Below, in pieces: positions 659-26,999 of a stretch of DNA of 28,406 nt. Within the stretch, counting starts at the first letter, position 1; each line of letters starts with the position of its first letter. The DNA comes from a virus, in IMG/VR virus record IMGVR_UViG_3300028610_000271, positions 1-28,406 of that record. The stretch is one strand, 5' to 3'. Below the pieces are notes generated by a model. That model did no database searches. It was not told the origin of the DNA and saw nothing but the letters and a program-made list of their open reading frames with translations. The position numbers were made by a program, and so were the translations under genes.

Positions 659-3001
659 ATGTCCCGTGATCTAACGACGATACGAGTATCTCCAAGCGGC
701 GATCCGAACGCGAGAATAATGCTCGTAGGCGAGGGTCCGGGCCGCTCAGAGGCCGGTGCGGTGCCGCCACGCCCTTTTATCGGCAAGGCGGGGGCGGAGT
801 TGGATCGCAACTTAGCTTCCGAAGGTATACTGCGTGACAAAGTATGGATCACAAACGCGACGAAGTACCTACCAAACACACCTAACAAACAAGACTTCTT
901 TTTCGTCAACAAAGAACCTACGCAAGTTTTACTTGATGGAATCGACGAACTACGAGCAGAGATCAAAGAAGTAAAACCCGATGTAATTATCGCATTCGGT
1001 AACGTAGCCTTGTATGCTCTAACCGGCAAGCTGGAATTCAATAATAAAAAACAACTAACAGGGATTACTAAATGGCGCGGATCTCCTTTACCCTGCGTCC
1101 TTGCATCAAACACCTGGGTCATTCCAACCTTCCATCCATCGTTTATCATGCGCGGCCAATGGCACTTACGCCCGTTCGTCGCTTGGGATATTCGCAAAGC
1201 GAAACGGATTTCCGAAACAAAAGACTTCTCTCTGCCCAAGCGTGAGTATACTATATTTCCAACAGAGGAAAATGTATATGCCGCGATTGAACGACTTACA
1301 GCAGGTCAACCATACGCTGCTGATACAGAATGGTACACACCAGAGGATCTGTCTTGTATAGGATTCTCCGATGATCCTCTATGGGCTATTTGTATCGAAG
1401 CTGGTCATGCCCTTGCAGATGAAGCATACGAAAAGCTTCTCAACAACAACTCCGTTAAGATTTTCCAAAACGGAATGTTTGACGTAGTAAATCTACGCCG
1501 CAAAGGTTGGAATGTCAAGGTTGTAAACGACGATGGTATTCGTATCATCGAGGACACGATGGTTGCTTTCCATTATTCCTGGCAAGATCTACGCAAGAAA
1601 GACCTTGGCACTATTGTATCTGTATACTGTGACCATCCGCATTACAAGGAAGATCTAAAGGTATCCCGCGAGACTGGTGATCCTGCACTTGAATACAGAT
1701 ACAACTGCGACGATAACGCATTGACGTTTGAATCGTGGGAAGGAATCAACGACGACATGGACTGGATGGGAACTCGTAAAGCCTACGAGATTTCCATGAT
1801 GAACTTTGACATAATGGCTGATGCCGCATTGACAGGTATTCGTATCGACATGGAAATCCATGCGAAGATACGCGAGCAGCTAATCAAAGAAGCAGGTATG
1901 TTCCAAGAAGTCTTGAACAACGGACTAAGTGGTGAGATTAATGTCCGATCTCATGTGCAAGTAAAACACGTTGTCTACGAACTTCTTGGCTGCAAAGTCC
2001 CGCGCGGACGTAAACGCGACAGCAGACAAGAAACATTAATGGACATATGTGCTAGTACCGATGATTCTGTGACAAAGAACCTGCTCATGTTAATCATAGC
2101 AGTACGTCACAGGCTTAAATCACTCAGTTCGTATATGAACGAGGATTTCATCGACGACGATGGTTATATGCGATTCAGTTGGAACCTTGCTGGCACTAAG
2201 AACGGACGTTACTCCGCAAGTAAAACCTATTGGGGATCTGGCGTACCTATTCAACAGATACCACCTGTCCTGCGTCGAATGTTTATCCCCGACGATGGTT
2301 TCGTATTCGCAATCCCTGACGCAGAGCAAGCAGAAGCGCGAGTTGTTGCCTACCTAACCGAAGATAACACAGTTCTCGATTGGATGGAAGAAGGACTAGA
2401 CATTCATAATATGCTCGCAGTTGAAATGTTCGACTTAGAATACGACGATATTGAAAAAGGCAGCAAGAAACGATTCGTCGCCAAGAAATCACGTCACGCA
2501 TTCAACTATAAAATGGGCGCGAGTACATACCGATTCAGCTTCAATAAGGAGCTAATGGAAACTGGATTTGGTATTAACCAACGCGAAGCAGAAGAACATC
2601 GTAGGCTTTACATGAACGTCTCCCCCAATCTACGCTTCTGGTGGAAGCAGGTTGAAAACGAACTACGCAAGAACAGCGCGATCACCAACGCCTTTGGTCG
2701 TCGTCGTCGTTTCTATCAAAGTTGGGGAGATCAACTCATTCGCGATGCAATTGCCTGTGAGCCTCAAGGTACAATTGCGGACCTAATCCACTACGGAGTT
2801 CGCGCTGTTGCAGACAACATTCCCAAAGCAAACATACTCGTCAACACACATGACGGTGCTTTAATTCAAATCCCTGAGAAGAATGCGGAGAAAACAGCCG
2901 AGCGCATAACCGAACTAATGACTATCCCATTCAATCTCCGTGGAAAGAATGTAATCATCCCAATCTCCACTCCAATTTCAAATTCCTGGAGTGGAGAATG
3001 A
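659..3001 (+). CDS. DNA polymerase A with N-terminal uracil-DNA-glycosylase-like domain and 3'-5' exonuclease
   Basis: This is a replicative family A polymerase of 780 aa. Residues about 18-185 form a UDG-superfamily domain: GEGPG at 24-28, RPFIGKAG at 38-45, a VWITNATKYLP strand, and HPS at 159-161. Family 4 enzymes carry four Fe-S cysteines, but none is present near the N-terminus here. The proofreading exonuclease has Exo I D222-T-E224, Exo II N271...D275 and Exo III Y348...D352. Polymerase motif A is D554 with E559 and R561. Motif B is R605, K609, H613, Y617. Motif C is H731-D732-G733. H613 aligns with E. coli Phe762, and G733 replaces the usual Glu. The start has only a weak SD, but the UDG fold needs nearly this N-terminus. 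The ATPase gene overlaps its stop by 4 nt (ATGA). Fusions of this kind are known in some phages. Catalytic residues for all three metal-binding polymerase and exonuclease sites are present, so polymerase and proofreading activity are expected; glycosylase activity is uncertain. Confidence 0.95.
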   Translation: MSRDLTTIRVSPSGDPNARIMLVGEGPGRSEAGAVPPRPFIGKAGAELDRNLASEGILRDKVWITNATKYLPNTPNKQDFFFVNKEPTQVLLDGIDELRAEIKEVKPDVIIAFGNVALYALTGKLEFNNKKQLTGITKWRGSPLPCVLASNTWVIPTFHPSFIMRGQWHLRPFVAWDIRKAKRISETKDFSLPKREYTIFPTEENVYAAIERLTAGQPYAADTEWYTPEDLSCIGFSDDPLWAICIEAGHALADEAYEKLLNNNSVKIFQNGMFDVVNLRRKGWNVKVVNDDGIRIIEDTMVAFHYSWQDLRKKDLGTIVSVYCDHPHYKEDLKVSRETGDPALEYRYNCDDNALTFESWEGINDDMDWMGTRKAYEISMMNFDIMADAALTGIRIDMEIHAKIREQLIKEAGMFQEVLNNGLSGEINVRSHVQVKHVVYELLGCKVPRGRKRDSRQETLMDICASTDDSVTKNLLMLIIAVRHRLKSLSSYMNEDFIDDDGYMRFSWNLAGTKNGRYSASKTYWGSGVPIQQIPPVLRRMFIPDDGFVFAIPDAEQAEARVVAYLTEDNTVLDWMEEGLDIHNMLAVEMFDLEYDDIEKGSKKRFVAKKSRHAFNYKMGASTYRFSFNKELMETGFGINQREAEEHRRLYMNVSPNLRFWWKQVENELRKNSAITNAFGRRRRFYQSWGDQLIRDAIACEPQGTIADLIHYGVRAVADNIPKANILVNTHDGALIQIPEKNAEKTAERITELMTIPFNLRGKNVIIPISTPISNSWSGE

Positions 3002-14143: not shown

Positions 14144-14381
14144 TCTTCACCGATCCAATCGCTTTACTGGCTACGTTACCAATATACGGTAACGTGGTTA
14201 CAAACACGAAATCTCTACCCCATGTCAATGCACCATCGAATCGTGTCCACGGCCACTTATCCCAAAACAATCCCATCACCACAATTACAAATACAGATCC
14301 AATCAATGACACTCCCGCGAGTAAAATCATCCGACTCATGCTTTTCTGTCCATCTGCTTCACTCAACGCTTCGTTAATCAT
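14124..14381 (-). CDS. holin-like small membrane protein, 85 aa
   Basis: The protein has a short charged N-terminus, a strong hydrophobic segment (MILLAGVSLIGSVFVIVVMGLFW), a loop with Trp residues, and a second weaker hydrophobic stretch (FVFVTTLPYIGNVASKAI). This two-helix layout and length fit a phage holin, which would permeabilise the inner membrane and release or activate the endolysin. ATG at 14393 gives four extra residues, but ATG at 14381 overlaps the endolysin stop as ATGA, the operon's usual junction, so I chose it. It lies directly after the M15 peptidase gene. No holin family can be named from the sequence. Confidence 0.6.
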   Translation of the reverse strand: MINEALSEADGQKSMSRMILLAGVSLIGSVFVIVVMGLFWDKWPWTRFDGALTWGRDFVFVTTLPYIGNVASKAIGSVKNGNVDH

Positions 14382-14698
14382 TTTGGATCCCATTCGATGT
14401 GGTAGTGGATGTTTGATCCTTTACCGTGTAATACAACATCATATCCTGGTAGTGCTTCTTTCAACCTGCGAAGTATCCTCTGCTGTTGTGCTTTAGTAAG
14501 ATCATTTGCACGACAGTCAAGAGCTTTTCCTTTATAATGAAAGCTCCAAGTAGCGTGTGTACCATTCCGAACAGTTGTAACTATACAATCTCGTCCAGCT
14601 TCCTCGCGAAAAATCTGATCAAGAATCGAATCATCCATCAACAACGTAAAGATTTGATCGACGAGATTAAAAGTCACACAACCAGTCTTGAAAATCAT
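14378..14698 (-). CDS. M15-type D,D/L,D-peptidase, minimal endolysin
   Basis: The 106-aa protein carries the M15 metallopeptidase signature SxHxxGxAxD as S52, H54, G57, A59, D61, and a C-terminal HYHIEWDP with H98/H100, matching the zinc ligands of VanX/DacB-like and phage endolysin peptidases that cut peptide cross-links of peptidoglycan. It is a bare catalytic domain: no cell-wall-binding domain and no signal peptide, so export would depend on a holin. A TTG start at 14722 would add eight residues, but ATG at 14698 overlaps the previous stop as ATGA with a GAGAG motif upstream, so it is preferred. Membrane-protein genes on both sides make a lysis cassette. Confidence 0.8.
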   Translation of the reverse strand: MIFKTGCVTFNLVDQIFTLLMDDSILDQIFREEAGRDCIVTTVRNGTHATWSFHYKGKALDCRANDLTKAQQQRILRRLKEALPGYDVVLHGKGSNIHYHIEWDPK

Positions 14699-14940
14699 GA
14701 CCGTCTCTCTTTTCCATTCCAAAGACCGGGAACATTGCCTAGTTTAGTCTCGATAACTGCGAGTCTTTCAGACATTTTTCCGCGTTGACTAGAGCCTGTC
14801 TTATTGTCTGCTTTCAACTCTTGTATATCTTGCTTCATACCATTCATACCAATACGAACTCCAATCCACGCCGCACTTGTCGGCCCTCCAACTATTGCAA
14901 GTAATGCAGCTATTACAAGCCAAGCTGGAAAATCACCCAT
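14695..14940 (-). CDS. single-pass membrane protein of lysis cassette, 81 aa
   Basis: An N-terminal hydrophobic helix (WLVIAALLAIVGGPTSAAWIGV) is followed by a charged, probably coiled-coil segment (MKQDIQELKADNK, ERLAVIETKL) and a basic tail. This is the shape of one-helix phage membrane proteins annotated as holins, antiholins or hemolysin-XhlA-like. ATG at 14940 overlaps the fibre gene's stop as TGATG, so I prefer it to a TTG at 14961. Its stop overlaps the endolysin ATG. With the two-helix gene at 14124-14381, the cassette has two holin candidates flanking the peptidase; one may act as antiholin. Confidence 0.65.
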   Translation of the reverse strand: MGDFPAWLVIAALLAIVGGPTSAAWIGVRIGMNGMKQDIQELKADNKTGSSQRGKMSERLAVIETKLGNVPGLWNGKERRS

Positions 14941-16760
14941 CACACACCACGCCGTTTCCAAAGATTTGATTTAACCATTCGTGTAAATCCTTTCTCGACA
15001 AAGTTATAACTCTCTTGAACTATCAAAACTAAATTCTCTCCGAAAGCATGAAGATTAGTTTCAGTTATGTTCAAAGCTTCGCTAACAAGTTCTACAAGAG
15101 CAGCACCCTCACCGACTACAAGCTTGACAATTCCTTCAACAACATTCACAACCTCTGAAACCAAGCGAACTAACACCTGTGTTGGTAAGGTAGCTTCCAC
15201 GAAATTAAGCGTATTGGCCTTAAATCTAACCATCACTCGTACAGGTAGTGACACTTCGACAAAATTTACAGCCTCATCTAAAATACGTAACAACACTAAA
15301 ACTGGTAATTTATCCTCAACAAAATTAACAATCTCCGCGATGTTCTTAGCAAGTAACTCTGTTTTATTCTTATCCTCTACGAAGTTAACAATCTCGTCAA
15401 CAGCCTTCGCTATACCGAGAACATTTATTGCACCCTCAACGAGATTTAAAACCTCATCAATAATCTGAGCTATTAAATTCGTATGGTTTATATCCTCAAC
15501 AAGGTTAAGTATCTCCGCTGGTAGACGGAACAATGCTAATGGTCTAAGCGGTGCTGGTTCGTTAAAGTTTACAACCTCCGCAGGTAAGCGGAATAAAGCT
15601 AACGGACGTACCTTGTCCTCGACAAAATTTAATACATTGTCGATAATCTGCTTAATCCCGATTGTATGAATCTCGTCCGCAACGAAGTTTACTACATTTG
15701 AAATATCTTTCGCAATCAACTTTGTTTTAAGCGTATCCTCGACAAGATTTTCAACCTCATCTATGATTCTAAGTAGAATTGCTGATTCAAACGCTCCTTC
15801 GTTGAAATTCGTAATCTCACCAAAAATTTTAACAAGTGCTTCACCGGCTGCAAATGAATATACATCCCCGCCAACGATTCTCTTTCCACCCGTAACAGGT
15901 TGGAAAACTTGGACGATATTATCAGAGGCATCGGTGACTACGATTCGTACTATAGCGGACAAATTCACATCAAGTACATCAAGTGTTGCTGTTCCGCTTA
16001 CTTCTGTTGCCGACTTTATAATTGCGCTGGTAATATCTAAGATTTTTAGTTTGAATCCAGTCGTTAATCCCGAACAGAGTATGTTTCGATCTGCTGTATC
16101 CCACCATTCTTTCCAGTTCGCCCAATCGGTTCCGCAACAACCACCGATCCCCGCATGACCAGCAGTAAGAGTTGATGGTGTAGCGTTTAAAGTTTCTGCT
16201 TCAGCAAAATCATAACCTGTCGCTTGACCAGCCCCGTCTACGAAAGTAGACAACCTATAGTCAGTATCAACAGCTTTATACGGGAGACTTCCGGTTGTTT
16301 GCGCTCCAACAGTATTATCATCACGCTCAGTAAAGGCAAAACCATAACCCGAACCATCGTCCGTGACTACAACATTAGCACCAAGAGAATCGTCACCGCC
16401 AACCCCCGTTTCCATATGAGCAATCAAAGATGGATAGTCCATCGGAAAGCCAGCGGGCGGCGAACTCGGTGAGTAAAATACTCCTTGCAACATTCGTTTA
16501 GCACGGCTAGTCGCACCTGTACCACTGTGCCGCATATAACCGATACCACCAGTTTCGACTTCTAACTCTCCTGTCGTTCCGTCTACTTGAACCGTAGTTA
16601 GGTTAAACTGCTTCTCCCAATCACCGGCATTGAACGGGACGGTAAGATGATTAGCGATATAATAAGCAAGTAACCCCTCGCTAGTTCTTTCAAGAACAGC
16701 CCCAATTCCTGCACGCGGAACAATGGGCCGATATTGAAAACTACGCCCATGTCGGGGCAT
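14940..16760 (-). CDS. tail fibre-like protein: lectin-like domain plus 14 tandem 20-aa repeats
   Basis: The 606-aa protein has three parts. Residues 1-25 are an Arg/Pro-rich N-terminus starting MPRHG. Residues about 25-300 look like a concanavalin/LamG-type beta sandwich followed by a small beta module; the segment GHAGIGGCCGTDWANW, then a GLTTGFKLKILD strand, is typical of the end of such lectin modules. Residues 308-594 are about fourteen degenerate repeats with consensus I-x-x-E-V-V-N-F-V-E-D, then a short basic tail. I infer a receptor-binding or surface-binding fibre with a repeat stalk or adhesive arm. It starts in a TAATG junction with the preceding gene and is followed by the lysis genes. 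No catalytic residues are recognised. Confidence 0.7.
   Translation of the reverse strand: MPRHGRSFQYRPIVPRAGIGAVLERTSEGLLAYYIANHLTVPFNAGDWEKQFNLTTVQVDGTTGELEVETGGIGYMRHSGTGATSRAKRMLQGVFYSPSSPPAGFPMDYPSLIAHMETGVGGDDSLGANVVVTDDGSGYGFAFTERDDNTVGAQTTGSLPYKAVDTDYRLSTFVDGAGQATGYDFAEAETLNATPSTLTAGHAGIGGCCGTDWANWKEWWDTADRNILCSGLTTGFKLKILDITSAIIKSATEVSGTATLDVLDVNLSAIVRIVVTDASDNIVQVFQPVTGGKRIVGGDVYSFAAGEALVKIFGEITNFNEGAFESAILLRIIDEVENLVEDTLKTKLIAKDISNVVNFVADEIHTIGIKQIIDNVLNFVEDKVRPLALFRLPAEVVNFNEPAPLRPLALFRLPAEILNLVEDINHTNLIAQIIDEVLNLVEGAINVLGIAKAVDEIVNFVEDKNKTELLAKNIAEIVNFVEDKLPVLVLLRILDEAVNFVEVSLPVRVMVRFKANTLNFVEATLPTQVLVRLVSEVVNVVEGIVKLVVGEGAALVELVSEALNITETNLHAFGENLVLIVQESYNFVEKGFTRMVKSNLWKRRGV
14979..15839 (-). 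repeat. 14 degenerate tandem repeats of about 60 nt (20 codons)
   Basis: The repeats encode residues 308-594 of the fibre-like protein. Typical units read KNIAEIVNFVEDKLPVLVLL and RILDEAVNFVEVSLPVRVMV, with the E-x-V-N-F-V-E core strongest. The DNA is also repetitive (a complement of CCTC-ACGAAATTAACAATCTC recurs), and two adjacent units near 15508-15545 and 15574-15611 encode LALFRLPAE twice, suggesting recent duplication. Average unit length is 20.5 residues. Related units occur in the gene at 25234-25947. Confidence 0.85.
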
Positions 16761-19502: not shown

Positions 19503-20399
19503 TTACGCGCCTGGAGATGCGTACAAAGAACGCCAATCGGCACAAGTTGCGCTGAAACGAGACTTGATTAGATAGATAACAGAACTATCAATCTCGTCAA
19601 CAACAGTTGCATCCGTAGGGGTCTTACGCCAGAAGAACGTAGGACCAAGATCGTTCGACGAATCTCTACCGAACCAAGCATCTACATCAGTGAGATACTT
19701 GTAAGAGAACGGTGCGATGTTGAAATCCTGCTTGAGTATGTTGACGTCATTTGTGTCAACACCTGGCTTCATATCTGCACGGAGAGTTTCACGCACAAGC
19801 CAGTAATTCGATGGATGGTGGATTAACATATCTGCCATCGCATCAATCTTCAAACCACGATCATCCTCAAGAAGCATGAAATGCTCAATCATTGCTTGGA
19901 TAGCTGTGAGAGTGAAGTCCGTAGCTCCTGCATTACTTACATCTGCAACACCTACACGAACATGAGCAGCATTGATTAGCGACACGCCATCATAGCCAAG
20001 TTGTGTAGAAAAAGCGTTGTTGTAAATACCTGCGGCCAAGCGTTCCTCTGCGTCACGATGCGAGCGAGCGAGATTAGATCCCGCCTTTGGTGCAAGCACA
20101 GCATACAGTTCATCGTCGATTACTTCTTCGGAGAACTCAACTCCGAGTCCGTAACTACGATGTGAAACGCGGATTGAACCACGAGCATACGGTTTGTCCA
20201 TCGCAATTCTTTCCAGTTCCGGCTTCTCAGGCACTGTGCCTAGTCCAGCAGCGATCAAGATATCCTCAAAAGCTCTTTGACTAGATTCAACACCCATTAC
20301 GGTTGGAAATTGCGATGCTAATTCTTTGTAATCACCTGCGAATGCTTTCCTAGCACCGGGAGTGATGTATTGATCCCATGATTGTCTTGCAACAGCCAT
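19503..20399 (-). CDS. major capsid protein (HK97-fold, Mu gpT-like family)
   Basis: The 298-aa protein matches the Mu-type major head subunit pattern. The N-terminus has ARKAFAGDYKELASQFP followed by SSQRAFED. A RVSHRSYGLGVEFSEEVIDDELY segment follows. The middle has SLINAAHVRVG, then LTAIQAMIEHF..EDDRGLKI. The end is DVDAWFGRDSS..PTFFWRKTP and the diagnostic DWRSLYASPGA. It forms the capsid shell around scaffold. There is no long N-terminal delta domain, consistent with the separate scaffold gene upstream. It has the strongest ribosome-binding site in the late arm (AAGGAG, 7 nt spacing) and is preceded by a decoration-like gene. Confidence 0.9.
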   Translation of the reverse strand: MAVARQSWDQYITPGARKAFAGDYKELASQFPTVMGVESSQRAFEDILIAAGLGTVPEKPELERIAMDKPYARGSIRVSHRSYGLGVEFSEEVIDDELYAVLAPKAGSNLARSHRDAEERLAAGIYNNAFSTQLGYDGVSLINAAHVRVGVADVSNAGATDFTLTAIQAMIEHFMLLEDDRGLKIDAMADMLIHHPSNYWLVRETLRADMKPGVDTNDVNILKQDFNIAPFSYKYLTDVDAWFGRDSSNDLGPTFFWRKTPTDATVVDEIDSSVIYLIKSRFSATCADWRSLYASPGA

Positions 20400-20840: not shown

Positions 20841-21346
20841 TATTCCTCATCCTTTTTCAAAGTAATCTCCTCACTGTGATCTGTTATACTACCCACTGGA
20901 CGAGCAACATTCCCATCCATATCACGTCGAGTGTCACTTTCGTAAGCTTCACGCGACCGACGTGATTCTGCTAGTGCGAGTTCATTTTTCTCCTCAATGA
21001 TTTCGTCTCGCCATTCGGTCGGAATTGACATCAAAACAGCGTCACCAATCCGAACCACTGAACCAATCTCACCCATTACGCGCTTAATGCCCTCGCTTTG
21101 AGCATCAACAAGTTCATATCCCATCATCTGACGTTTAGGTACGTTGGAGAACTTTTTATCATGTTCTGGATCTGCAACCCAGTAAGTTGAACGATCTGGA
21201 TTCTCTGCTTTATATGCTGCTTCGCATTCAGCCATCATTGTTGTATACATTCCACGACCACGAGCGCGGATGTATGGTGGACGTTTACGCGCCTTTGCCT
21301 TAGTAGGCTTAGTTTCTTTAGCTGCTGCTTCTTTTTGAGTAGCCAT
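20840..21346 (-). CDS. hypothetical head-region protein with basic N-terminus, 168 aa
   Basis: I do not recognise this protein. The first 30 residues are Lys/Arg/Ala-rich (KEAAAKETKPTKAKARKRP), which could bind nucleic acid or the acidic scaffold. The middle has aromatic and Met-rich segments (GRGMYTTMMAEC, KRQMMGYELVD) and a predicted helix-strand mix, and the C-terminus is charged and helical. It sits between scaffold and decoration genes with 1-nt TAATG overlaps on both sides, so it is probably a head-assembly or minor head protein. Confidence 0.6.
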   Translation of the reverse strand: MATQKEAAAKETKPTKAKARKRPPYIRARGRGMYTTMMAECEAAYKAENPDRSTYWVADPEHDKKFSNVPKRQMMGYELVDAQSEGIKRVMGEIGSVVRIGDAVLMSIPTEWRDEIIEEKNELALAESRRSREAYESDTRRDMDGNVARPVGSITDHSEEITLKKDEE

Positions 21347-22116
21347 TATAATCCTGGAACCTCCACAACGAGTTCACCTGTGCTGAATTCTAAGAATTCT
21401 TCTTCTGTCATACGAGTTCCTAGCTGAATTTCCTTAGCCAAGCCGGTTAGTTTACCCGGTAAATCTGACTCATTTACTTCCGGTGTAGGCTCAGGAGTTT
21501 CTATAGAAAGCTTCGCTGCTGCTTTATCCTTTTGAACAGAAGCAGCTCCTCGGGCCATTAGATAAGCACCATGAACTGCTCCTTCTGTAACTGGTCCTGA
21601 TTGTTGAGATAAGATTAACCTAACTGCATCTTCATGCTCATCGAAATCAGCACCAATTGAACGAGATGCTTTAATCAACTCCGTCTCACCAATTCCCTTT
21701 TCTAACCTATTAACCGTAGTGCTATAACGCCGATTAAGCATTATATCCATAGCTCGCTCAGGATCGTCGAGCATTAGTTCTTTCAAATCCACATCTGCAT
21801 CTGGATCTGGTTCATCTGGTGGAACGGGTCGTTCAAACGCCTGTGACTCAAGCTGTGCAATTCGATTGTTCAGAGAGTCCGTCTCAACATTCTTCGATTG
21901 CAATACTCTCGTAGCTGCTCCCCACATTGAAGAAATCTCAGCAGAAGTTTTTCCACGCATTTCCTCGGGCAATTCGGAACGTTTTATCGAGTCAGTGTCC
22001 TGCGTTCCCGCTGAATCGCCGCCCTTCTGTCCACCACTCTCTGCTGTCCCTTCGTCTGCACTTTCTCCAACTGTTCCTTCGCTTCCAATTCCCTTAACTC
22101 CGCTCTCCTCAACCAT
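21346..22116 (-). CDS. probable capsid scaffolding protein, 256 aa
   Basis: This is an acidic, hydrophilic protein with a Gly/Ser/Glu-rich disordered N-terminus, a central coiled-coil segment (LQSKNVETDSLNNRIAQLESQ), a helical middle, and an acidic C-terminus. It has no catalytic motif. This composition and the position between portal and capsid are those of podoviral and siphoviral scaffolds, which template procapsid assembly and then leave. ATG at 22116 follows GGAGAAAAAGA. The first 133 nt are shared with the nested 122-aa gene in another frame, so both protein ends are constrained by the same bases. Confidence 0.7.
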   Translation of the reverse strand: MVEESGVKGIGSEGTVGESADEGTAESGGQKGGDSAGTQDTDSIKRSELPEEMRGKTSAEISSMWGAATRVLQSKNVETDSLNNRIAQLESQAFERPVPPDEPDPDADVDLKELMLDDPERAMDIMLNRRYSTTVNRLEKGIGETELIKASRSIGADFDEHEDAVRLILSQQSGPVTEGAVHGAYLMARGAASVQKDKAAAKLSIETPEPTPEVNESDLPGKLTGLAKEIQLGTRMTEEEFLEFSTGELVVEVPGL

Positions 22117-22352
22117 TCTTTTTCTCCATTCTCAGCAGCGAATACTAAATCCTCCACGAGTAATTCTACCTTCTCTACAGCCTCAAAATACCCTTGACGT
22201 TTCCAAAACTCACGGGTTGATTGAGTCCTCACCACCCACATTAACGAGTCCTGTTTCATCTGTTCCAGGTGGGCTAAGTAAAGCTTCCAACCGGGCGAGG
22301 TTATCAGCTTCTTTAGCTCTGTCAGCTGCTTTCTCGAAATCTTGAGATCCAC
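21984..22352 (-). CDS. nested 122-aa gene overlapping both portal and scaffold genes
   Basis: A GTG at 22352 preceded by GGAGG (22359-22363, 6 nt spacing) opens a 122-codon frame that ends TGA/TAA-side at 21984. It overlaps the portal end by 143 nt, fills the 93-nt space between portal and scaffold, and overlaps the scaffold start by 133 nt. The product is helical and charged: an ELKKLITSPGWKLYLAHLEQM start, a RQGYFEAVEKVELLVEDLV middle, and a Glu/Lys/Arg coiled-coil end. The SPGWKLY type of N-terminus recalls small phage proteins encoded beside portals. The open frame continues further upstream, so the start is chosen by the ribosome-binding site. Function is unknown; a portal-scaffold link is plausible. 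Confidence 0.65.
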   Translation of the reverse strand: MDLKISRKQLTELKKLITSPGWKLYLAHLEQMKQDSLMWVVRTQSTREFWKRQGYFEAVEKVELLVEDLVFAAENGEKEWLRRAELRELEAKEQLEKVQTKGQQRVVDRRAAIQRERRTLTR

Positions 22353-24192
22353 CGAGATCCTCCGATGCAGGTAGTATTCGTTCAAGAACCCGTAGACCCG
22401 CAACAATGTCGTCCGGGTTTGTAACATCAAACCGATCCAAAATTTGCTGCATGAACTTCTCAGACGATTTAACAAACTCAACCGCCACAGGCGCAAGAGC
22501 TTCCGGCGGAACACCAACTCGTTCGATAAAGTCGATAATCTGCGTGTACATCGTGAGAGATAGGTTGAATATCTGAATAGCATTTTGTCTCTGCAATTCT
22601 TTGTTTTGCTGACTTGTAGGACTCGCAGCACGGAATCCTAGGCCATTCTCTATTGCGGAAAGTGGAAGGTTAAAGATTCCAACCATTATCCTTCCGCGAT
22701 CTCCTAGCCATTGAACAACTGTACTTTCCTCTACACCGAATTGGAAATAGAGAGAGAAAACCATGTCACCTACTTCTGACAGGCCATTGCGGATTGATCT
22801 AACTGTTTGATCGAAACGCTTGGCTTGTTCTTGGAGTAAGGCTATTTGTGCTGTCGCGGTTGTTCGTGATACTGGTTGACCTCCACGAGAGTTTGCATCA
22901 TTCACACCGCTTAGACGTTCAATAACATCGCGAGTAAGATTTTCGTTGACTATTGTTGAAGGTGAAACTGTACCGAGTTGAAGCGGGGTTACGTCTTGAA
23001 AATGATCTACAGGGATTATTTGCCCTGAGAATAACGGATCGCCGGGCTTCAAGCTTTTTGATGTTCGCGTTACAAGCAACGGGCGTGTGTTGATTATCGT
23101 TGTATTGTCAATACGTTGGTTATGCATTTCGGAAATTTCATCCTGTAATGCTTCCAACATTTCACACAAGCCGTGGTCGTAAAATCTATGTTCTACCGGG
23201 AAGAAGGAGAACTTAACAAAAGGACGCTTCATATGCCAGAATTGATTGTAATTAATCCTAAGCATAGTCCCGGTGCGTAGATGGTAATGAACGATAAGTT
23301 CTTCCATTTCCCCATCACCATCTGCATCGAACGCAAGATAGATTTCGTAAATTTCAAAGGTATCTCTTTCACGAGGTTCCGCACTTTGCAGTTCTTCATG
23401 AAGTTCTTGAACTTCGTTATTCTGGTCATTGTCCGTTTCGTTAAGCGGAGAGTCTATGTCGATCAACTTCTCCACATCGGATTTTTTGTAATACCCTCGT
23501 TTTACATCGTGCATTAACTGGCGTTTGTTGCGTCGAAAACGCTTTCCACACCAACGAGCATCTTGAATATTAGTGGATGTAAAGGGGATTATGAAATCCT
23601 CAAGTGGGATATGAAAGACAACAGGGCCAGTGTTTTTGATGTTCTTGACCTTAGTTGGCTTTATACCATCGCGGTTGTAGAGGTAATGTGTTCGTATATC
23701 TTCTCTATAACCAACCTGTAAGATGGATGTACCATACTTGGTTCCTTCAAGAATCCAACCCTCTGCAAGTGGGCCTATTTTGATCTCACGTTTCGCGGCT
23801 ATGTCCATAAACCGTTCAATCGTAGGAACGAAAGGTGCCCATTCGTCCGCGATAGCTTCCATGTTCCATTGCGGAGTAGGAGTTAAGGTAGTTTGAGTTA
23901 GCTGTGCAACCATTGTATTTACGATTTCTTTAATCACAGGAATCGTAAGGTTCGATGCATTGCGAACAGGAAAATCCTTCGGCTCAGTTGCAGGTGGAGC
24001 GTTGTAAGCAAACTGCCAGCGTTTGAGATTATTTACAAACTGACCACGCTCACCAAGAGCGAGTTCGATCTGCTGTTGGAGAAACCAACCTAGCTCCCTA
24101 CGCGATTCACGAGAAAGTGAGACTTCTCCCACAATGGAAGTCTCCTGCTTTCTTATCTTTGCAAATTCGCTAAATTCTACAACCCTAGCCAC
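22210..24192 (-). CDS. portal protein, 660 aa
   Basis: Portal features are clear: an early helical region followed by FPVRNASNLTIPVIKEIV; an alpha/beta region with a SFFPVEHRFYDHGLCEML segment and then the long helix with EISEMHNQRIDNTT at about residues 350-363; a VSPSTIVNENLTRDVIERLSGV segment; and a RTTATAQIALLQEQ helix typical of podoviral and Mu-like portals. The protein forms the dodecameric DNA channel at one capsid vertex and receives terminase and adaptor. The start is GTG at 24192 behind CGGAG, 2 nt after the previous stop. The final 143 nt also encode the start of the nested 122-aa gene. Length is at the larger end for portals. Confidence 0.88.
   Translation of the reverse strand: MARVVEFSEFAKIRKQETSIVGEVSLSRESRRELGWFLQQQIELALGERGQFVNNLKRWQFAYNAPPATEPKDFPVRNASNLTIPVIKEIVNTMVAQLTQTTLTPTPQWNMEAIADEWAPFVPTIERFMDIAAKREIKIGPLAEGWILEGTKYGTSILQVGYREDIRTHYLYNRDGIKPTKVKNIKNTGPVVFHIPLEDFIIPFTSTNIQDARWCGKRFRRNKRQLMHDVKRGYYKKSDVEKLIDIDSPLNETDNDQNNEVQELHEELQSAEPRERDTFEIYEIYLAFDADGDGEMEELIVHYHLRTGTMLRINYNQFWHMKRPFVKFSFFPVEHRFYDHGLCEMLEALQDEISEMHNQRIDNTTIINTRPLLVTRTSKSLKPGDPLFSGQIIPVDHFQDVTPLQLGTVSPSTIVNENLTRDVIERLSGVNDANSRGGQPVSRTTATAQIALLQEQAKRFDQTVRSIRNGLSEVGDMVFSLYFQFGVEESTVVQWLGDRGRIMVGIFNLPLSAIENGLGFRAASPTSQQNKELQRQNAIQIFNLSLTMYTQIIDFIERVGVPPEALAPVAVEFVKSSEKFMQQILDRFDVTNPDDIVAGLRVLERILPASEDLGGSQDFEKAADRAKEADNLARLEALLSPPGTDETGLVNVGGEDSINP
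22359..22363 (-). promoter_or_regulatory. ribosome-binding site deciding the GTG start at 22352
   Basis: GGAGG on the minus strand lies 6 nt before GTG, inside the coding region of the portal. It is the main reason to begin the nested gene there and not at the upstream end of the long open frame. Confidence 0.6.
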
Positions 24193-24758: not shown

Positions 24759-24761
24759 AAG

Positions 24762-24920
24762 TTAATCTCCTACCACTGAAATTACACTTTCTTTGAGCCG
24801 TTCTCTGGAATTCTGCCCATCTTTAGGCTTATTAGTAACAGCTTTCCAAACAGCGACAACGATCAGAATAACAAAAGGTGTTGCAAACCCTGCAAAGTAA
24901 ATTCCCAATTCTTTAATCAT
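24762..24920 (-). CDS. small single-pass membrane protein, 52 aa
   Basis: ATG at 24920 opens 52 codons ending TAA at 24762-24764. The protein has a clear transmembrane helix (FATPFVILIVVAVW at about residues 12-25) and a charged cytoplasmic-type tail. Its ATG overlaps the previous TGA as ATGA, which strongly supports it in this operon. It fills the 160-nt space between the Ig-like and 187-aa genes. Its role is unknown; a third small membrane peptide in the late arm besides the lysis cassette and the 56-aa gene. Confidence 0.65.
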   Translation of the reverse strand: MIKELGIYFAGFATPFVILIVVAVWKAVTNKPKDGQNSRERLKESVISVVGD

Positions 24921-25237
24921 GGTTGACGATCCGTTATTACGAGTTCATGATTTTCGACCAGTTTTTTCCCCACGCCAGCATCAACAATTATCTCTGCGCG
25001 GTAAACCGAGCCGATTGCGAATACAGCATCATCGCTAAGTACGCCGATGTAATCTCCTTCCGAGTTAGGGATATAGTTAAGAACAATAGGCCAAGCAATT
25101 CCAGCTACTACCACATCTGCATCGTCGTAGATTGTAACTGAAATCGTAGCAGCATTTTCAAACTTATCATTTATAATATCAAATAGATTATCAACTCGTA
25201 AGATATTATCCGATCCAGTTAATACAACTCTCATCAT
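24917..25237 (-). CDS. Ig-like beta-sandwich virion protein, 106 aa
   Basis: The pattern of alternating strands (NAATISVTIYDDADVVVAG, WPIVLNYI, GDYIGVLSDDAVFAIGSVYRAEI, ENHELVITDR) is that of small Ig-like or carbohydrate-binding-like modules common in phage head and fibre proteins. The N-terminus SDNILRVDNLFDI is typical of such proteins. The start is ATG 25237 in an ATGA overlap with the repeat-protein gene, and a second ATG follows at 25234. It probably decorates the particle or accompanies the repeat protein. Confidence 0.65.
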   Translation of the reverse strand: MMRVVLTGSDNILRVDNLFDIINDKFENAATISVTIYDDADVVVAGIAWPIVLNYIPNSEGDYIGVLSDDAVFAIGSVYRAEIIVDAGVGKKLVENHELVITDRQP

Positions 25238-25947
25238 TGTTCCATATCCCTGTTGATCCAGAAGGTCATTCTCATCGCCGTGATGGAAACAAACTTCATG
25301 ATAACCTGACCGATTACGAATGCGAGTCCTATTACTTGGTCTAGTAATGTCAATGATTCAGATACAACTCTGACTTTACCTAATGCTAAGATTGTTGATT
25401 CTGTTGAGTTGACTATTTCCGACACAGTTTGAGCTATCTCTAATCCAATGTCTTTTACGGCACTGGCAGATGTAGTTACGAAGTTTACAACCTCGTCAAT
25501 TACCTTAGAGAATAGCTTGTTCGGATCTGCCGTCTCAGAAATCTGGAAACGGTTTACAAACTGGCGAACTAAAACCCTCACAGGAGTTTGAGTGGATACG
25601 AAGCTGAATACCTCCGCAACTGCGCGGACAATCGCCTCACCGATCTCTACGCCGATTACATGATCTTCTGAGAATACGAGATTGATAACTTCGTCGATTA
25701 CCTTGACGAGAAATTCTTCTGCGATACTAAGCAAATGATTTACCGACTCGACGTAGTTTAATACCTCACTCTCGATGAATAACCACGCAACTGATGGATC
25801 TTCGGTTTCTGACAAGCGTAATGTACTATTTATAATCTGAATTATCGCATCAGCGAGGATTTGAAATTTATTGACAACCTCGTTATTGTTTAACGATTCA
25901 TCAATGATTCTATTCCGCTGTAATGCAACTACGAGAATATCAGGCAT
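25234..25947 (-). CDS. repeat protein related to fibre repeats, 237 aa
   Basis: Almost the whole protein is built from degenerate units of about 20-25 residues containing E-V-V/L-N-F/Y-V-E-like cores: IESEVLNYVESVNH, KVIDEVINLV, KVIDEVVNFVTTSASA, IAQTVSEIVNSTES. These match the array in the 606-aa fibre (14979-15839). Two segments are nearly shared: the KVIDEVVNFV core, and TPVRVLVR compared with LPVRVMVR. There is no N-terminal domain of its own. It begins in TAATG with the beta-helix gene, whose last residues form one more unit, so the pair may have arisen from one split protein. Its role is probably a stalk or adhesion arm. Confidence 0.65.
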   Translation of the reverse strand: MPDILVVALQRNRIIDESLNNNEVVNKFQILADAIIQIINSTLRLSETEDPSVAWLFIESEVLNYVESVNHLLSIAEEFLVKVIDEVINLVFSEDHVIGVEIGEAIVRAVAEVFSFVSTQTPVRVLVRQFVNRFQISETADPNKLFSKVIDEVVNFVTTSASAVKDIGLEIAQTVSEIVNSTESTILALGKVRVVSESLTLLDQVIGLAFVIGQVIMKFVSITAMRMTFWINRDMEQ

Positions 25948-25985
25948 TAGAAGTTCACGCTTTCATCGAGAACTTTTACAATATC
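25267..25985 (-). repeat. second array of about 20-codon repeats crossing a gene boundary
   Basis: Units run from the last 12 codons of the beta-helix gene (IVKVLDESVNF) through the repeat-protein gene. The D-E-S core of the last unit before the stop (Asp codon at 25967) lies 65 nt from the next D-E-S core (Asp codon at 25902), about one unit length but one frame off. The repeats are degenerate and vary in spacing more than in the array at 14979-15839. Confidence 0.6.
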
Positions 25986-26999
25986 TCCTCCTGTGATTGA
26001 TAATTCATGCGCGCCTATATCCCACGGTACATCACGGGCGTTGTCAAGAATATCAACCCCGAAGTTGGCACTTAAATCAGCGGCAGCCTCGTAGCCAGAA
26101 TCGCTGGAGGAATTTATTCGATAATCTCTATTGATAAATACAGCATTGGTATCATCTACATAATCAATCACCGGGCTGTCGGCGGAATCGAGCGAGTTCG
26201 TACCCCAGTTCACATCACTGTTCGCTTCTCTATCTGTGAGGTTAAAATCACTAGCCGCGTCCATTACATCGGGAAGGCTTGCGTCGGATATATCGAAGCG
26301 TATATTCGTAGCGCGACAATTCTTGTGAGTTAGCGTAGTTCCGGCGTCTGCTATGAAGTTTAGTGTTGTCCATTCGTCGAAGGTACAATTGTCGAAGAAT
26401 AGAGTGGGTCCGCCCGAACCTGCCGGTACATCAATGGCAGGACTAAATACGTTCTCTTTATCACCGCCATACGCTATCCAGTTACGCCAACGACAGGTAA
26501 CAGCGGCATCTATCTTAAATCCACGCCAAGCAGTACCGGAATTGTGGTCTACGATCATAATACCGCCACCATCGAAACGATTCCAACCACCACTTGCCGA
26601 ACTTACTTTGAATACGGCTGCTGTACTTGTTCCCGTACCCAAGTTGTCCCTCATTTGGAACGTGCCTTCAGTGTGCCAGAGATGATCTACTTGATTGTTT
26701 TCAAATACATTACTAAGGGCCGAAAGTCGATAGCCTAATGTAGACCAGACGGCGGTATAGAATGGATCACCCCCGCTGTCGAGGAAACGTAACTCGACGT
26801 AATTTGTTGGGCTAGTTTTCCAGGCTGTATCATCTATAACACACTTTACGGTATCCTCAAATGGATAACAGTCAATTCGTAGGATTTCATCCGAACCTGT
26901 GGCGGCTGTTATATCAGCGGCTTCACCACCGAACGCGGCATCAAGTCCTGCATAATCTCCGCCAGATGCTTTAACTGTTACTGTTCTGAGTGTAGCCAT
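25947..26999 (-). CDS. parallel beta-helix protein with one terminal repeat unit, 350 aa
   Basis: The N-terminus RTVTVKASGGDYAGLDAAF and the succession of short strands with Asn/Asp/Gly turns (WNRFDGGGIMIVDHN, TLFFDNCTF, TTLTHKNCRATNIRFD) are those of a right-handed parallel beta-helix of the pectate-lyase/tailspike type, and DIGAHE near residue 333 is the usual closing motif of such proteins. Polysaccharide binding or cleavage is possible, but no catalytic triad is recognised. The last residues DIVKVLDESVNF form a unit of the repeat family found in the next gene. ATG at 26999 overlaps the upstream TAA (TAATG). It probably belongs to a tail-spike or surface structure. Confidence 0.65.
   Translation of the reverse strand: MATLRTVTVKASGGDYAGLDAAFGGEAADITAATGSDEILRIDCYPFEDTVKCVIDDTAWKTSPTNYVELRFLDSGGDPFYTAVWSTLGYRLSALSNVFENNQVDHLWHTEGTFQMRDNLGTGTSTAAVFKVSSASGGWNRFDGGGIMIVDHNSGTAWRGFKIDAAVTCRWRNWIAYGGDKENVFSPAIDVPAGSGGPTLFFDNCTFDEWTTLNFIADAGTTLTHKNCRATNIRFDISDASLPDVMDAASDFNLTDREANSDVNWGTNSLDSADSPVIDYVDDTNAVFINRDYRINSSSDSGYEAAADLSANFGVDILDNARDVPWDIGAHELSITGGDIVKVLDESVNF

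Follow-up and report, generated by a model that had tools for sequence, protein, structure and literature searches.

Does a reading frame that lies across the end of a portal gene and the beginning of the adjacent scaffold gene encode a protein of its own and, if so, what could that protein do? The question arises from the window, a 28,406-nucleotide stretch of DNA corresponding to positions 1 to 28,406 of the IMG/VR virus record IMGVR_UViG_3300028610_000271. A sequence-only reading had pointed there to a 122-codon, GTG-initiated ORF with a GGAGG at the right spacing, overlapping the two head genes by 143 and 133 nt, and we confirmed these coordinates in the sequence (Table 1). The comparisons reported below show, at the level of nucleotide and predicted protein sequence, a conserved coding gene that occupies a set position among the head genes.

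Layout of the nested ORF and its surroundings

Table 1. Coordinates of the nested gene, its segments and the neighbouring head genes in the window.
Feature	Position	Strand	Details
Nested gene	21984..22352	minus	GTG start; 122 codons, then stop; +1 frame of portal
Shine-Dalgarno GGAGG	22359..22363	minus	Inside portal codons; spacer ATCTCG (6 nt) to GTG
Overlap with portal 3' end	22210..22352	minus	143 nt; nested residues 1-47; dual-coding
Nested-only segment	22117..22209	minus	93 nt; shared with no other gene
Overlap with scaffold 5' end	21984..22116	minus	133 nt; C-terminal part of nested protein
Portal gene	22210..24192	minus	660 aa; GTG start; Pfam SU10_portal 1.9e-34; PHROG 1216 5.4e-37
Probable scaffold gene	21346..22116	minus	256 aa; between portal and capsid; LPEEMRG-type motif
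Major capsid gene	19503..20399	minus	298 aa; PHROG 371 major head protein 6.5e-9; Pfam Mu-like_gpT 1.4e-4

The gpT-like capsid gene is located four ORFs after the nested ORF. For the probable scaffold ORF, searches of Pfam and PHROG returned no family match; its sequence motif is common to the ORF at the same position in relatives. The nested frame had been described as filling the only sizeable gap between the two genes. It does cover the sole gap between portal and scaffold; elsewhere the operon contains a longer one (24759-24916). GTG22352 is not the first possible start of the nested frame, which stays open for about 280 nt further upstream (215 codons counted from the first possible start). 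Recognisable Shine-Dalgarno sequences are also found on about half of the remaining minus-strand genes of the window.

Elsewhere in the window, a plus-strand gene (659-3001) encodes a 780-aa protein whose N-terminal domain (residues 13-167) belongs to the uracil-DNA glycosylase superfamily (1.5e-22) and is fused to a DNA polymerase domain of family A (residues 405-777, 7.3e-35). Three minus-strand ORFs (14940-16760, 25234-25947 and 25947-26999) carry recurring 'EVVNFVED'-like motifs (e.g. ..DEIVNFVEDKN..) and are possibly repeat-rich fibre or surface proteins; the 606-aa product of the first had no Pfam match. A 114-aa TTG-start ORF with a HIEW motif (14378-14722, minus strand), whose likeness to M15-type peptidases was judged by eye, is a possible endolysin, and its sole Pfam match was a sub-threshold Hedgehog-signal domain (0.0058).

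Conservation of the nested frame and constraint on the portal gene

Single-sequence searches of viral contigs found only one near-identical contig (L001), which at 99.9% identity is useless for selection tests. The nested protein had no tblastn match in phage records, and a scan of genome contigs found no relatives. Searches based on the portal yielded 17 distinct close relatives, whose portals are ~40-49% identical to that of the window. Related phages with stops in the nested frame but an intact portal and scaffold had been named as the observation that would speak against a gene; we found the opposite. All 17 close relatives keep the +1 frame open across and past the portal end, with translations homologous to that of the window: a conserved tryptophan segment, usually S.GW[K/R], is followed by ~24-36% identity over 75 residues. 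In the portal frame, the tail that this DNA encodes is similarly conserved (20-37% identity), so that identity alone cannot separate the two frames. Synonymous recoding of the portal does separate them, as the observed similarity of the window +1 translation to those of L096 and L097 was reached in none of 20,000 recodings (for L096, ~4.8 SD above the mean).

Reduced synonymous change in the portal gene, one of the checks proposed by the sequence-only reading, was evident both in the window clade and family-wide. Within the window clade, mean synonymous change per portal codon fell from 0.52 upstream to 0.27 in the overlap. The step coincides with the GTG codon (0.49 immediately upstream, 0.26 immediately downstream), with one unexplained dip 21-30 codons upstream of it. 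The corresponding overlap with the scaffold gene did not hold as a general feature, as the nested gene ends before the scaffold start in most close relatives.

We then considered 98 distinct loci with a recognisable portal, in which the small ORF was picked by an automated rule; its first-start calls overstate some N-termini, and it may take unrelated ORFs in the most distant loci. The small ORF adjoins the portal end in 96 of the 98, and 66 start at least 60 nt inside the portal, all in +1. Three of these (L022, L034 and L074) looked spurious and were dropped; in more than 60 deeper relatives the ORF starts ~120-330 nt before the portal stop in this same +1 frame. An earlier 11-member HMM had been marginal and was replaced by a profile of 61 deep ORFs (window, L096 and L097 excluded), which recovered the window nested ORF at E = 7.9e-10, the next window ORF scoring 0.34.

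Across 13 independent pairs, portal synonymous change amounted to 55/390 (14%) under the nested ORF versus 2897/6157 (47%) upstream (Fisher p ~4e-41). Since codons from one pair are partly dependent on one another, more weight falls on the consistent direction (lower under the nested ORF in 13/13 pairs) than on the p-value. The portal amino acids behave in the opposite way, being less conserved under the nested ORF than upstream (65% vs 87%). For control portals without a deep overlap, the values for synonymous change were 35% vs 48%, or ~47% vs 56% when one near-identical pair was omitted. The nested-only part of the relatives differs by 0.21, 0.14 and 0.445 at the first, second and third nested codon positions, a periodicity that is the usual mark of coding sequence. 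The window ORF thus shares the traits of the family: profile homology, a deep +1 start with an end past the portal stop, and dual-coding constraint on the portal.

Synonymous constraint by itself cannot distinguish RNA from protein, but an RNA element in the portal tail, whether a structure or a signal, is barely credible as its cause, given the +1 amino-acid homology, the third-position periodicity in the unique part of the nested ORF and the relatives free of stops.

A frame left open by chance, with no product, has slightly more to recommend it. When the portal tail was recoded synonymously, the 47 +1 codons stayed open in 6.5% of cases (P = 0.065, given the portal amino acids), which is not significant, and the portal bodies of 63 relatives contain 52 chance ORFs of at least 80 aa in +1 against 19 in +2. 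Openness is therefore weak evidence, and we let the claim rest on comparison (homology and constraint) rather than on length. For the same reason, the finding that 66 of 66 deep ORFs lie in +1 was discounted as strong proof. Homology across more than 60 lineages, a frame open in 17/17 close relatives, reduced synonymous change and nested third-position periodicity all need protein-level selection, and these comparisons effectively refute a chance frame, which we consider very improbable. The nested frame is almost certainly a real coding gene. It is not universally required, as such a small ORF is missing from Mastigocladus phage CHP58, whose portal is related.

Start codon and C-terminal end

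GTG22352 is the probable start codon. The element CGGAGGA..GTG is retained in four other relatives (L193, L194, L195 and L197), and L198 has an ATG two codons on from the aligned GTG. At the aligned start site, L184-L192, L196 and L199 read GGG, and no convincing canonical start was seen there. L096 (5709-5723) and L097 (3228-3240) have GAG at this site and no ATG, GTG or TTG at the expected start; in both, GGAGGA is followed after ~5 nt by ACG or ATT. The nested frame is conserved in all of these relatives, which include members of a sister clade (L184-L199), despite the missing canonical start; translation in them may begin at a non-AUG codon or farther downstream, or depend on translational coupling.

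Such loci lend some weight to a different route of expression, in which a +1 ribosomal frameshift would append the nested frame to the portal as a C-terminal extension and no start of its own would be needed. Consistent with this, the deep overlaps are always in +1 and the frame is open upstream of the GTG. The first of these arguments is weakened by the intrinsic openness of +1 (52 vs 19, see above). Furthermore, synonymous constraint begins at the GTG and not far upstream, apart from the dip 21-30 codons before, and 46 of 63 deep-overlap relatives have an ATG as first start, 35 with a Shine-Dalgarno sequence there. We regard a frameshift product as improbable and internal initiation as the better reading.

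At the other end, the main HMM match stops near residue 80, and residues ~79-122 over the scaffold gene fall outside it. The coding status of these C-terminal ~40 residues is suggested by the open frame and a predicted helix.

Predicted structure and counterparts in known phages

The sequence-only reading had taken the product for a genuine helical protein, and structure prediction agrees. AlphaFold2, run with 51 family members, gave a mean pLDDT of 94.3 and a pTM of 0.62, with helices at residues 7-17, 20-42 and 46-121. The model thus predicts a small helical protein composed of a helical hairpin and one long helix. Searches of Pfam, PHROG and NCBIfam returned nothing for the window protein and, across the family, only isolated single-member matches, none of them convincing. 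Against the PDB, no sequence match was better than E = 0.79 and no fold match better than 1.3; among predicted viral structures, no match passed E = 0.001. The best of the latter is a 76-residue protein, the same length as CHOED_090 of Vibrio phage CHOED and possibly identical to it.

CHOED_090 (YP_009021756.1) and MQM1_05 of Aeromonas phage MQM1 (WFZ78488.1), both hypothetical proteins encoded just after the portal, are homologous to the nested family (family HMM 34 and 38 bits). Together with ctKR88 they form a group that aligns to the nested family with an hhalign probability of 96.6% (E = 5.6e-10). Like the window gene, both are situated between portal and probable scaffold gene, but they are shorter (76 and 70 aa) and overlap the portal by only 0-20 nt. 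The CHOED capsid is annotated as P22-like, a further difference from the window phage. Aeromonas phage 1233 (L182, 4001-4231) contains an unannotated homologue that is closed by an in-frame stop close to its end, at a point where the CHOED_090 frame continues.

Two further phage records hold unannotated, small, helical-looking ORFs between portal and scaffold. The ORF of vir526 (BK063670.1; L003, 5579-5845) overlaps the portal by 209 nt in +1, whereas that of ct7ZZ929 (MW202601.1; L005, 5078-5356) shares 1 nt with it and scores weakly against the family HMM (6.8 bits). In line with the earlier suggestion that such a gene is easily missed, the vir526, ct7ZZ929 and Aeromonas phage 1233 records carry no annotation of their own copy; gene callers penalise long overlaps.

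A small gene follows the portal in N4, EcP1, DSS3phi2, RG-2014, SU10, CHOED and MQM1. Escherichia phage N4 gp58, EcP1 gp58 and DSS3phi2 orf68 lie directly between portal and gp57, RG2014_077 lies just after the portal, and EcP1 gp58, in +1 like the window ORF, shares 89 nt with the portal gene. The N4 gp58 family has the same location as the window gene, following the portal and preceding the scaffold-type gene. Structure matches to Schitoviridae proteins of EcP1, RG-2014 and DSS3phi2 (138, 138 and 127 aa; Foldseek probability 0.87-1.0, E 0.1 to 0.85) were assigned to genes by organism and length, each of these phages having a gene of exactly that size directly after the portal. At the profile level, no homology between the N4 gp58 family and the nested family was detected (hhalign probability 0.3%; N4 gp58 HMM 2.8 bits). 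In position, and perhaps in its modelled fold, the nested protein is similar to proteins of the N4 gp58 type.

Escherichia phage SU10, a phage of the portal family from which SU10_portal takes its name, encodes gp7 (78 aa) between portal gp6 and scaffold gp8, the same place as the window gene. SU10 gp7 differs in having no portal overlap, and its score against the family HMM (3.4 bits) is not significant, being equalled by 11 of 300 shuffles.

In four distant relatives, the small ORF next to the portal and the gene at the scaffold position are separated by a gene for a GroES-type co-chaperonin (L175, 3079-3402; L176, 3124-3528; L177, 3336-3677; L178, 3130-3465).

Possible role in head assembly

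Conserved position, predicted fold and one published proteome suggest what the protein may do. Ribosomes would start at the internal GGAGG...GTG inside the portal ORF of a late mRNA, and translation in the +1 frame would run past the portal stop and end inside the scaffold ORF. The product could be a non-virion prohead-assembly factor acting where portal meets scaffold; it might, for example, help to incorporate the portal as its chaperone or adaptor. Nesting would keep its synthesis in step with that of the portal. Absence of such a factor from virions is suggested by two observations: distant phages retain the position, and SU10 gp7 was missing among the 34 proteins detected in a preparation in which portal, scaffold and capsid were found (PMC4281155), a weak indication, as most SU10 proteins went undetected. 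On this evidence, we consider the chances evenly balanced that the ORF is a real gene of the late head module and serves in head assembly, and we judge a role of the nested protein in prohead assembly to stand at the same midpoint. A link between portal and scaffold, in line with the coordinating factor suggested by the sequence-only reading, would be the most obvious guess. Its narrower description as a specific portal-scaffold adaptor, based on the conserved position, the predicted fold and the absence of SU10 gp7 from the proteome, is tentative and rather doubtful.

The gene could also be real and do another job. Its product would then be a minor component of the virion, a protein for tail joining or packaging, or a factor that is directed at the host and whose gene just happens to lie in the head operon. 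This is a serious contender, if somewhat short of an even chance. No family match assigns a function, and location alone is no proof of role, since adaptor and packaging genes also occur near portals. Retention of the portal-scaffold place across very different phages speaks against it and, as a weak argument against a virion protein, so does the SU10 proteome. We found no literature on the function of N4 gp58. Sp5 ORF61, which is linked to head formation and whose antibody did not bind particles, was set aside because its correspondence could not be shown.

Significance for phage head genes

As a case of overlapping phage genes, the arrangement is widespread yet absent from catalogues. This portal type comes with the gene in most of the phages examined, so a probable component of head assembly has been left uncatalogued. 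Portal C-terminal tails evolve under dual coding where the overlap is deep, which matters for portal alignments. Taken further, and speculatively, the nested ORFs may constitute a widespread, largely unannotated class of head-assembly proteins whose genes sit within that of the portal, always in +1. Each protein would bridge portal and scaffold to start prohead assembly, nesting would tie its dose to portal synthesis, and N4 gp58 and SU10 gp7 would be less nested or un-nested counterparts; we hold this to be rather unlikely. What secures a single portal ring in each head is an old question, and N4 gp58 and the MQM1_05 protein are candidate factors available in cultured phages.
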